The notes under the pieces were generated by a model that ran no database searches, was not told the DNA's origin, and was given only the letters and a program-made list of their open reading frames with translations. Positions 645 through 15,500 of a DNA stretch of 34,848 nucleotides are shown piece by piece; the stretch's first letter is position 1; each line of letters opens with the position of its first letter. Origin of the DNA: Actinomycetota bacterium (GTDB lineage: Bacteria; Actinomycetota; Geothermincolia; Geothermincolales; RBG-13-55-18); the NCBI GenBank assembly GCA_013178005.1, contig JABLXL010000038.1, positions 1 to 34,848 on the forward strand, written 5' to 3'. The translations under genes were made by a program, and so were the position numbers.

Positions 645-650
645 TATAAT
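645..650 (+). promoter_or_regulatory. -10 box (TATAAT) for the RNA upstream of hpf
   Basis: Perfect TATAAT, without a convincing -35 box 17 bases upstream. Transcription would start near 656, where the structured region begins. The stretch 535-644 between flgM and this box shows no gene. Confidence 0.4.
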
Positions 651-655
651 GTAAC

Positions 656-1054
656 GGGAAGGCTTCTGCCCGGGTCTGTGGTTGAAAGTCGATGCCAGCC
701 GCAGGCGAAACGACCCACGTAAGCCAACTCTTGGTTGGTGAGCATGGTGCGGCTTAGGGGTAAGTCCTGCCCGGCATCAAGCCGGAGAAGCGTAGTAGTG
801 GAGGGCCCGGGGTCTTTCCGGAGAAGAGCCCGCCCTCTGCGAGCCGTTCAGCAGGCGAGTGTGGGGGCAAAGACCAGGTCAGCCGGGTTACGAGGCCTTC
901 CCTTCAACTACCCGCGTGTTGGCATCGGGTCGATGGTGTGTTAGGCTAATGCGAGTCGGAGAACGGAAACCGGGCCGGGTCCCGGGCGTGGCTCAGTCCC
1001 ATATAACGGTCTCGATGAAGGCCCATACCGCGAGCAACCTGGTATGGGTTTTTT
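656..1054 (+). ncRNA. Probable raiA-type structured RNA
   Basis: About 400 bases without a credible gene, lying directly upstream of hpf (raiA family), where the raiA RNA motif of Firmicutes and Actinobacteria is found. Structure seen: GCCCGGG at 668-674 can pair with CCCGGGC at 981-987 and close the whole region; GTCG/CGAC flanks a GC-rich loop near 690-715; a CCAAC/GTTGG hairpin lies near 724-738; GAGGG/CCCTC pairs near 800-838. A TATAAT box precedes it and an intrinsic terminator ends it. The raiA identity rests on position and structure, not on a covariance-model match. It could be a stable RNA or a regulatory leader of hpf. Confidence 0.55.
1022..1054 (+). terminator. Intrinsic terminator between the RNA and hpf
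   Basis: Perfect 8-bp stem (1022-1029 with 1041-1048) with an 11-base loop, then six T residues (1049-1054). It ends 25 bases before the hpf start codon, so it either ends the upstream RNA or acts as an attenuator for hpf. Confidence 0.85.
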
Positions 1055-1079
1055 CGCTGAAAGGAAGGGAGCGAGAGAT

Positions 1080-1724: not shown

Positions 1725-3347
1725 ATGGACATAAGGATGAAGGCGGCGGCGGGAGCGGGCCTCGTGGGCTCTATCGCGGTCATCCTCTATCTCACCCTGG
1801 CGGGGGATCTTTCGGTTTACTGGTTCTCGGTGGCGGTGCTGGGAGCCCTCATGGTGGTATGCGAGACCATGGGGGAGAGGATGGCCTCAGGGGGTCGCTC
1901 TACCTACGGGATAATCGTCATCTTCGCCGCGGTGGTTTCCCTGAACACGCCATCGGCCATGATCGTGGCGCTTTGCGGGGCTTTTCACCTGCATATGCTG
2001 GAGCGCAGGGAAGATCCCTGGGAGCTCGCCCTCGCCGGTTCCACCTACGCCATCTGCGCCTGGGCCTCCTCGGCGGTTTATCATGCCCTCGGCGGCGCCT
2101 CGCGGGCCTTCACCTTCTCGGGCGCCATGCGTTCGCTGCTGCCGCTCCTGGTGGCGGCGGGGGTTTTCTGGATGCTGAACACCCTGGCCGTGGGGCTGGC
2201 GCTGCGCTGGCGCGACGGCGTCGAGCCCGCGAGGTTCCTGTTAGGCGACGCCCTGAAGCTGCTCCCCAACCATTTCCTGTACGCGCTCATCGGGCTGGGA
2301 ATGGGGGTCATCTACGCTCAGAACGCCTTTCACGTCGCCATGGACCTCGAGGGAAGGCCGCTTCTGGACGCGGGAGGCAACCAGGTCATCCTGGGCTCGG
2401 TGGCGGAGTCGATACGCGGCTTATTCGCGGTGATGGCCCTCACGGCCATACTGGGGGTCGCCTGGTATTTCAGCGGCAAGAACATCGCCCTCCTGGAATC
2501 CTACGACCGCAGCATGGAGGTGCTGGTGACGCACCTGGAGAGGCGCGAGCCCTACCTTGACGGCCACGCGGTGAGGGTCGCCGAGCACGCGGCGCGCATC
2601 GCCGAAAGGCTGAGGTTGCCCATCTACGAGGTCAAACGATTGCGCCACGCCGCCCTCCTCCACGATCTGGGGCGGCCCGCCATACCGCTGGAGGTCCTGT
2701 TGCAGAGGTCTCCGTTGAGCGAAGAGGAATTCGAGCGCGTGAAGTCGCATCCCCTTGAGGGCGCCTCCCGGCTCGAGGAGGTATCGTACCTCTCGGATAT
2801 GGCGGAGGCGGTGAGGCACCACCACGAGTATTACGACGGAGGGGGGTATATCGACGGGTTGAAGGGAGAGACCATACCCCTTTCCGCGCGCATCCTGGCG
2901 GTGGCGGACGCCTATGACGCCATGGTCCATCCCCGCCCATGGAGGGACGCCAAGACCCACGAGGCGGCCCTGGCCGAGTTGCGCGAGAACGCCGGCCGCC
3001 AGTTCGACCCGGAGATAGTGGAACATTTCATCGCCTCCCTGCAGGTGGAGGGGACCGGCGCGGAGCGGAGGGCGGAACGCCGTGCGGCCGTGTCCGAGGA
3101 AAGCGTTTCCGTGGAAGCGGAGACGCGAGTCGAGGAGGAAGCGCGTAGGCCGGCGCCGGAACGCAAGCGTCGGGCGAAAAGGCGCGAGGAGATCCTGAGG
3201 GAGCGCCGCGAGGCCCGGGAACGCCTGGAGCGCGAGGCCATGCGGCGTCTGGAGGAGGATGGCGGCTCGACCCCGGCGCGAGGCGAAACGGGTGACGAGG
3301 AAGGCAGAGGATACGAAGCGGCGTCCGGAGAGGAGGAGGAGCGATGA
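1725..3347 (+). CDS. Membrane-anchored HD-GYP-type phosphohydrolase
   Basis: Protein of 540 residues. About six hydrophobic helices span residues 8-250. A cytoplasmic HD-GYP-like domain covers about 260-435, with HAVRVAEHAARIA, the metal-binding His-Asp pair at about 313-314 (HDLGRPAIP), HHE at about 366-368 with DGGGY, and VADAYDAM. HD-GYP proteins usually degrade cyclic di-GMP. Two signature residues differ: the Lys after HDxG is Arg and GYP is GYI, so activity and substrate are uncertain. Residues 440-540 are an Arg/Glu-rich tail, probably a charged coiled coil. The stop overlaps the next gene's start (ATGA), so the two are translationally coupled and may act as a pair. Confidence 0.85.
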   Translation: MDIRMKAAAGAGLVGSIAVILYLTLAGDLSVYWFSVAVLGALMVVCETMGERMASGGRSTYGIIVIFAAVVSLNTPSAMIVALCGAFHLHMLERREDPWELALAGSTYAICAWASSAVYHALGGASRAFTFSGAMRSLLPLLVAAGVFWMLNTLAVGLALRWRDGVEPARFLLGDALKLLPNHFLYALIGLGMGVIYAQNAFHVAMDLEGRPLLDAGGNQVILGSVAESIRGLFAVMALTAILGVAWYFSGKNIALLESYDRSMEVLVTHLERREPYLDGHAVRVAEHAARIAERLRLPIYEVKRLRHAALLHDLGRPAIPLEVLLQRSPLSEEEFERVKSHPLEGASRLEEVSYLSDMAEAVRHHHEYYDGGGYIDGLKGETIPLSARILAVADAYDAMVHPRPWRDAKTHEAALAELRENAGRQFDPEIVEHFIASLQVEGTGAERRAERRAAVSEESVSVEAETRVEEEARRPAPERKRRAKRREEILRERREARERLEREAMRRLEEDGGSTPARGETGDEEGRGYEAASGEEEER

Positions 3348-4705
3348 GCGAGAGGCGCATGAAAGCCCTGCGCTTCCTTTCCGTCCTGCTCTTCTTGACG
3401 GTCATCGTGGTATGCGCGCCCTTCGTGAAGTGGGGCGACATCGACCCCGCGCGCACCTTCGGACTCGCCGCCATACTGGCTTTCCTGGAGGCATGGAGGG
3501 TTCAGTTCCCGTGGGGCAGGCCGCTGCGCCTGGGGATGGCGGCCATCCTTTGCGTCATCGCCATAAGGCCGTTGCCGGAAGCGGTTTTCATCTTTCTGCT
3601 CGGAAGTCTGGTGGGACGGGCCTTCTCCCGTCTGCAGCGCTCGGGAGAGGGCGATTTCCTGCACATCATCCAGCGCACCTACATCGTTGCCCTGGCGGGG
3701 CTTATCTATCGCCTGGTGGCCTTCGCGGGCTGGGACATGACCTGGAATCCCTACCCTGCGTACTTCGGCAACCTGCCCGACGGCAACGTGTTTCTTACTT
3801 ATTACAACCCCGTGGTGCTCCACCGCGCGCTGGTTTTTCCGGCGGCGTTCTTGCTCATGGCGCTGGTCTTCTATCTGGGCGAGGTGATCACCTCCTCGGT
3901 GGAGACGGGGATCCTGCTGGCGGGTAACTGGCGGGTCATCTTGCCCCAGCATATGCGGCAGACCTTCCCCGCCTACCTCGCCATCAGCGGCGCGGGGGCG
4001 TTGATGGCCCTGTATTTTCCGCGCCTGCCCTGGTTCAACTTCCTGGTGTTCATGGTGCCGCTCCTTTTGGTGCGCATGGAGTCCAACCGCGATAAGGAGC
4101 TGGACGAACGTTACTTCCAGACCATGCGCATAATCGGCGACGCCTTCGACCTGGCGCGCGGGATGCCTGGACATTCGGGCAGGGTGAGCAACCTGGCCGC
4201 GGAGGTGGCGCGGGAGATGGGCGTCTCGGCGGAGGAGACGCGCAACATCCGCTACGCAGCGGCGCTGCACGACATCGGCCACATCGAGTTCGAGGCCGAG
4301 GAGAAAGCGGAGGCGCACGCCGGAAGGGGAGCGGAGGTGCTGGAGGAGGTGCCCCGGCTGCGTCCCATTGCCCATATCGTGCGCCACTCCCACCCCACCT
4401 CGGATGAGGAAGGCGGCATGGGCAAGGTGCCCGTGGGGTCCAGGATCATCAGCGTGGTGAGCGATTACGATGTCCTGACCAACCATCCCAAGCGCAAGCT
4501 GCCGCAGAAAGAGGCCCTGGAGGAGATGGGGCTCGAGCGGGGCAAGAGGTACGATTCCATCGTCCTGCGCACCCTCTCCCAGGTGCTTGAAACCCAGGCC
4601 AGGGCGCGCCGGCGCCCGGAGCGCGAGATCAGGCAGCGGGCCAAGGTGCTCGAGGAAGAGGAGCTCAAGGAGAGCCTGGAGGAGATCTTCAGGGAAGGGG
4701 ATTAG
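3344..4705 (+). CDS. Membrane protein with a divergent HD domain
   Basis: Protein of 453 residues coupled to the preceding gene by a 4-base overlap. Residues 8-245 contain six to seven hydrophobic helices. The HD domain (about 255-410) keeps a His in GHSGRVSNLA and the His-Asp pair at about 309-310 (HDIGH), with VRHSHP and VVSDYDVLT further on. The HHE...GYP half typical of HD-GYP enzymes is missing. The C-terminus is a charged Glu/Arg-rich helix similar in character to the neighbour's tail. The pair looks like a duplication in which this copy diverged towards another substrate or a regulatory role. Function is not assigned beyond membrane HD superfamily. Confidence 0.8.
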   Translation: MSERRMKALRFLSVLLFLTVIVVCAPFVKWGDIDPARTFGLAAILAFLEAWRVQFPWGRPLRLGMAAILCVIAIRPLPEAVFIFLLGSLVGRAFSRLQRSGEGDFLHIIQRTYIVALAGLIYRLVAFAGWDMTWNPYPAYFGNLPDGNVFLTYYNPVVLHRALVFPAAFLLMALVFYLGEVITSSVETGILLAGNWRVILPQHMRQTFPAYLAISGAGALMALYFPRLPWFNFLVFMVPLLLVRMESNRDKELDERYFQTMRIIGDAFDLARGMPGHSGRVSNLAAEVAREMGVSAEETRNIRYAAALHDIGHIEFEAEEKAEAHAGRGAEVLEEVPRLRPIAHIVRHSHPTSDEEGGMGKVPVGSRIISVVSDYDVLTNHPKRKLPQKEALEEMGLERGKRYDSIVLRTLSQVLETQARARRRPEREIRQRAKVLEEEELKESLEEIFREGD

Positions 4706-15155: not shown

Positions 15156-15500
15156 TGGTGGAGGCGGGGGGAGTCGAACCCCCGTCCAGAAATCCGGCCG
15201 GGTGGGCTCTACGAGCGTATCCGCCGTTTCAGGTTTCGCCGTCGGGTCGCCCGGCGGAGGGCTTGCCGGCGGCTATCCCGTTAGGATTTCCCTCGGCCTT
15301 TACGGGAGTGGGGCCTCGGTGATCCCGCTGCATGACGCCCCTTCCCCGGTCGCGGGCCCTCCGGGGAGGGACGGGCCGCTTAAGCGGCCAGAGCCAACTC
15401 GCTGTCGGCGTCTATTGGTTTTCCCGCTTGTTAACGAGGCTCGGGTCCCCGGCTCGCTCCCGCGCCGGCCGCCGATCCCTGTCGAAGCCGTTTCGCCCCC
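15156..15500 (-). ncRNA. ssrA: tmRNA
   Basis: Transfer-messenger RNA, 345 bases. The 5' end GGGGGCG (at 15500) pairs over seven bases with CGCCTCC before the ACCA end (15156), with one G-U pair. The 5' tRNA-like part has the family stretch GAAACGGCTTCGACAGGGA and the 3' part a T-arm GGGGGTTCGACTCCCCC. The tag frame reads ADSELALAA then TAA. It rescues ribosomes stalled on broken mRNA and marks the product for proteases such as ClpXP, encoded 13 kb away. smpB lies upstream on the same strand. Encoded protein frames across this region are not genes. Confidence 0.95.
15380..15409 (-). other. tmRNA proteolysis tag frame
   Basis: Nine codons plus TAA: ADSELALAA. The resume codon GCC follows TAGAC, comparable to TAGTC before the E. 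coli tag. The ALAA end is the ClpXP/ClpAP recognition signal. Confidence 0.85.

Follow-up and report, generated by a model that had tools for sequence, protein, structure and literature searches.

The non-coding region ahead of the hpf gene raises the question of whether a structured RNA encoded there controls hpf in cis, or whether the RNA and hpf are independent neighbours, each with its own signals for transcription. A preliminary description of the window (the whole stretch of 34,848 nt that was analysed) proposed a raiA-type RNA with a terminator of its own directly ahead of hpf, and a possible regulatory switch. The raiA/ModT RNA, for which a solved structure and a growth-transition phenotype are available, has no known mechanism, and the neighbourhood of hpf is among the few clues. 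The reading that we consider probable is that two adjacent and separable units meet here: a trans-acting raiA/ModT RNA, and hpf with its own promoter and an attenuating terminator.

The gene order is a FlgM-like gene, the raiA RNA, hpf, two HD-domain protein genes and secA. The hpf (or raiA) gene, at 1080-1622 on the + strand, encodes a two-domain protein of the long form (long HPF; Pfam PF02482 and PF16321, Ribosomal_S30AE and Ribosom_S30AE_C), and a ribosome-binding site, AGGAAGGGAG, is located at 1062-1071 (+), 8 nt before the ATG. The gene that immediately precedes the raiA RNA (283-534), for a FlgM-like anti-sigma-28 factor, has a Pfam match barely over the cut-off. Upstream of it, an 86-nt unit, possibly a repeat element, is present in two direct copies that are 87% alike (1-86 and 133-218). 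The two HD_5 membrane-like proteins encoded between hpf and secA (1725-3347 and 3344-4705) may be HD-GYP-related; because loss of ModT alters cyclic diguanylate (c-di-GMP) in Clostridioides difficile (PMC11706538), this neighbourhood may be worth a look. Elsewhere in the window, a tmRNA gene is present at 15156-15500 on the - strand (RF00023, 152.6 bits).

Judged by its sequence, the RNA of this locus is a genuine new member of the known raiA/ModT family (RF03072). A covariance-model search, the check that the preliminary description had proposed, matched the Rfam raiA model (RF03072, cut-off 101.3 bits) to 665-891 (+) over model positions 1-209 with 176 bits and an E-value of 6.5e-45, bearing out the claim of a raiA-type RNA ahead of hpf. 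The source genome has a single copy of the RNA. Among related genomes, it was found in 14 of 15 from the family, in 29 of 31 from the class and in 136 of 396 sampled from the phylum. The two class genomes that lack it (G008 and G020) have no detectable hpf either, and so are uninformative about its loss. The core of the RNA ends 188 nt before hpf, a position that fits the habit of the family.

The RNA possesses the features that mark members of RF03072, namely a closing helix (P1) with covariation and a strongly conserved core. Bases 668-673 form the 5' strand of P1, with 883-888 as their partner in the Rfam model, and an inverted repeat (656-666 with 892-902) extends the helix outward as far as the predicted first transcribed base. 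Among 17 relatives, the outer pairs covary: position -7 from the core is found as G-C, C-G or A-T, position -15 as A-T or G-C, and position -11 as C-G, T-A or T-G. Of the five inner pairs, four are intact throughout the 17 sequences and the remaining one in 16 of them. The long-range pairing of 668-674 with 981-987 that had been claimed for this region was rejected: the two words are complementary, but the first belongs to P1, which together with its outer extension is far more stable (-34.0 versus -18.9 kcal/mol), and the second is not conserved in the family alignment. The segment 656-1056 folds only slightly better than shuffled sequences (z of -1.3), and the case for a raiA RNA is therefore built on the covariance model and on comparison rather than on folding energy.

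A perfect -10 box, TATAAT, is located at 645-650 (+), as previously noted, and predicts a start of the raiA RNA at about 656-657. The same hexamer is found in 14 of 14 family genomes, at the same distance from the RNA core to within 3 nt, and no -35 consensus was recognisable upstream of it in these genomes. The short form of the RNA would occupy 656-902 (+), comprising the Rfam core, the inverted repeat and the covarying outer P1. Across the class, sequence comparison suggests that the 3' end of the raiA RNA is formed by its own closing helix and a U-tract behind it: over the 29 loci of the class, T makes up 47% of the ten bases that follow P1, compared with 21% of the remaining intergenic sequence, and 20,000 resamplings gave no value as high as 47%. 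This succession of helix and U-tract suggests that P1 itself serves as a terminator stem in much of the class. The pyrimidine tract at the corresponding site of the source species (903-912, +) is weak (CTTCAACTAC; 3 T in 10), so that read-through as far as 1054 is likely, which would give both a short and a long form of the RNA.

A second promoter, overlooked in the preliminary description, is predicted at 919-947 (+) and is tied to hpf rather than to the raiA RNA. It consists of a -35 element, TTGGCA (919-924), a 17-nt spacer, and a -10 element, TAGGCT (942-947), extended by a TG one base before it, with a predicted start at about 953-954; the pattern occurs once in the source genome. TAGGCT is a weak match to TATAAT, a point against the reading preferred here. 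The extended -10 element is present in 14 of 14 family genomes, and 13 of them also have, at a distance of 17 or 18 nt on its upstream side, a word that resembles a -35 element and reads TTGCGG in two genomes and TTGGCA in the others; in the remaining locus, L013, the word is TTGGCG and has been pushed 10 nt further off by an insertion, which likewise counts against that reading. The distance from the -10 element to the hpf start codon is about 125-135 nt in 11 of the 14 genomes, 95 and 114 nt in the two genomes without the terminator stem described below, and longer in L007, which carries an insertion, whereas the raiA core and the promoter may be as close as about 25 nt or as far apart as 326 nt.

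From this promoter and the start codon, an hpf leader is predicted at 954-1079 (+), of about 126 nt up to the start codon or about 100 nt if transcription is terminated. Within it, an intrinsic terminator spans 1018-1054 (+), with a stem CCCATACC/GGTATGGG at 1018-1052, a U-run at 1049-1054 and a dG of about -16; the strong terminator reported earlier was thus confirmed, as was the gap of 25 bases (1055-1079) between its U-run and the ATG at 1080. A conserved promoter upstream of a terminator that in turn precedes the start codon is the arrangement of an attenuator, and the terminator probably attenuates hpf, whose transcripts would have to read through it. The preliminary description had offered read-through or a separate promoter as alternatives; hpf has a promoter of its own and would still need read-through, and the choice between the two falls away.

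The same stem, with a variable loop, precedes hpf in 12 of 14 family genomes and is unique in the genome in 11 of those 12. A second copy of the stem in G013 (L111) was discarded because no U-run follows it. Across four genera the stem is nearly invariant while the loop drifts. The U-run begins 29-32 nt before the hpf ATG in the family cases that were scored; two loci (L005 and L011) fell below the U-run rule of the terminator scan, yet their stem is seen in the alignment. Two family genomes (L004 and L006) lack the stem, and hence the terminator is not essential to the arrangement. L007 has an insertion downstream of its original terminator, and the inserted DNA supplies another whose distance to the ATG is once more within this range (31 nt); a locus of another family (L017) has a terminator of different sequence 32 nt before hpf. 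As controls, the window and 71 hpf loci from other groups were scanned for terminators, and only 2 of the 71 loci had one within 80 nt upstream of hpf; in the 12 of these foreign loci that were checked, no raiA RNA scored above the cut-off.

Where 60-300 nt of other DNA has come between the RNA and hpf in relatives, the promoter, the leader and the terminator remain next to hpf as a block. Near-fixed spacing to hpf and variable spacing to the RNA indicate that all three are parts of the hpf unit. The proposal that the terminator is the raiA RNA's own did not hold, as it is downstream of both promoters and moves with hpf. In our estimation, it is unlikely that a long raiA RNA is instead made constitutively and ends at this terminator, with leaky read-through, a weak or inactive second promoter, and hpf transcribed mainly from the raiA promoter. 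The weak tract after P1 in this species would agree with such an arrangement, as would the long clostridial isoforms, which end at a downstream terminator (PMC11706538), and ten other actinobacterial loci where a terminator-free gap of 32-58 nt separates the raiA core from hpf, so that the RNA and hpf are probably one transcript; but the second promoter is kept in 14 family genomes in linkage with hpf and not with the RNA, and in L009 about 430 nt lie between the end of the RNA and the terminator.

The leaders were examined for folds that could act as a switch. In 12 leaders, the terminator folds with a probability of 0.87-1.0, its 5' arm has no recurring alternative partner that could act as an antiterminator, and the sequence ahead of it gives no consistent signal of conserved structure (z of -2.5 to +1.3). 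No Rfam family matched within 880-1100. Three candidates were considered and set aside: pairing of 894-900 with 1017-1023 as an antiterminator, because the 3' word is GAAGGCC here and GATGGCC and GAGGGCC in the two other members of the genus; complementarity between the -35 region (920-927) and the invariant bases 690-697 of raiA, which is kept in a minority of relatives and was judged to be due to chance; and a leader peptide across the terminator (frame from 1015), because the loop lengths vary and L007 has a stop.

These results bear on the suggestion that the raiA RNA controls hpf in cis as a riboswitch, in which binding of a ligand selects either the terminator or read-through. Rfam types RF03072 as "Cis-reg; riboswitch", and the RNA is directly upstream of hpf with a terminator between, but such a mechanism is very improbable: no conserved pairing joins the RNA core to the terminator, no conserved alternative fold links the RNA to an expression platform, the terminator folds with high probability in the leaders examined, and it stays with hpf where the RNA is hundreds of bases away. 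Furthermore, the phenotypes of ModT deletion in C. difficile were complemented from another locus, i.e. in trans, and the authors exclude a cis riboswitch (PMC11706538). That the RNA and hpf look like separate units in this lineage argues against reading their proximity as that of a riboswitch and its gene, and the cis switch envisaged in the preliminary description is not supported. Partial read-through is the simplest mechanism; if read-through is regulated, a protein, the rate of elongation or an RNA acting in trans would be more likely causes than a refolding switch.

The sequence conservation of the terminator stem exceeds what simple attenuation explains, and counts against the model of two separable units as the best explanation. 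It could be accounted for by a trans factor that recognises the conserved stem and opens the terminator (regulated antitermination), a possibility to which we assign a low probability. The near invariance of the stem in four genera while the loop drifts would be in keeping with such recognition, as would the related stems before hpf elsewhere that have a cold-shock-like (csp) gene just upstream, although no candidate factor was identified and the conservation of the stem may reflect only the kinship of the genomes. Conceivably, though with little likelihood, a cold-shock-type RNA chaperone, another protein or an RNA opens the stem upon entry into stationary phase, with related forms recurring near csp in other actinobacteria. 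If true, this would be a dedicated and so far undescribed antitermination control of ribosome hibernation.

In three other families of the class (f4, f5 and f7), the csp gene is located between the raiA RNA and hpf, and in several of these loci hpf is preceded, at about 50-63 nt, by a terminator whose stem resembles AACCCCAT/ATGGGGTT. L146 and L153, which are from outside the class, have a comparable stem 35 nt before hpf. Terminators near hpf in several lineages suggest that an intrinsic terminator close ahead of this gene has been kept or gained repeatedly. Across distant actinobacteria (L146, L153, L118 and several f4 and f7 loci), stems resembling AACCCCAT/ATGGGGTT are seen repeatedly, either ahead of hpf or behind csp. 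In L016, a palindromic element with ends like GTCTCATAAATAC/GTATTTATGAGAC is found inside the loop of the csp-hpf terminator, and a similar element is found upstream of the raiA RNA in L029.

According to the model of two separable units, the raiA/ModT RNA would be transcribed from the TATAAT promoter (645-650), fold into its known structure, closed by a long P1 that starts at the first bases of the transcript, and act in trans. Its 3' end would lie close to the tract that follows P1 (short form) or, as the weakness of that tract suggests, at the terminator at 1054 (long form). Transcription of hpf would begin from its own promoter at 919-947 and cross about 100 nt of leader before meeting the terminator just ahead of the ribosome-binding site, and hpf mRNA would be made only by polymerases that read through. 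The terminator would attenuate hpf from either promoter and keep basal HPF low; read-through may increase as cells enter stationary phase, owing to a factor or to slower polymerase and not to refolding of the RNA. The comparisons point to an independent, conserved control of hpf by read-through.

The raiA RNA shares with the raiA/ModT RNAs (RF03072) of Bacillota and Actinomycetota a full-length match to the model, a site before hpf and a promoter of its own. Its P1 is several base pairs longer, in the outward direction, than in the RF03072 model. In clostridia, raiA/ModT is an abundant, stable, trans-acting RNA, and in C. difficile it has short and long forms (PMC11706538), which may be produced here also. 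Unlike the known raiA/ModT loci, this one has a separate hpf promoter and a terminator between the RNA and hpf, a lineage-specific arrangement. The hpf attenuator is modestly new and specific to this lineage; no earlier account of an attenuator before hpf turned up in the part of the literature that was covered. Like premature-terminator attenuators generally (PMC2965389), it has a terminator between promoter and start codon that is conserved between species, and differs from them in that neither a leader peptide nor an antiterminator fold was recognised. Among documented architectures, the nearest is that of the UpsM leader before mraZ and the dcw cluster of Rhodobacter, in which expression of the gene hinges on rare read-through of the terminator in its leader (PMC5089854). 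The two leaders agree in having a terminator that must be read through for the gene to be expressed, and a small RNA as the terminated product (predicted in the case of hpf); UpsM shares the only promoter of mraZ, whereas hpf has a promoter of its own, and the raiA RNA is a separate, widely conserved structured RNA.
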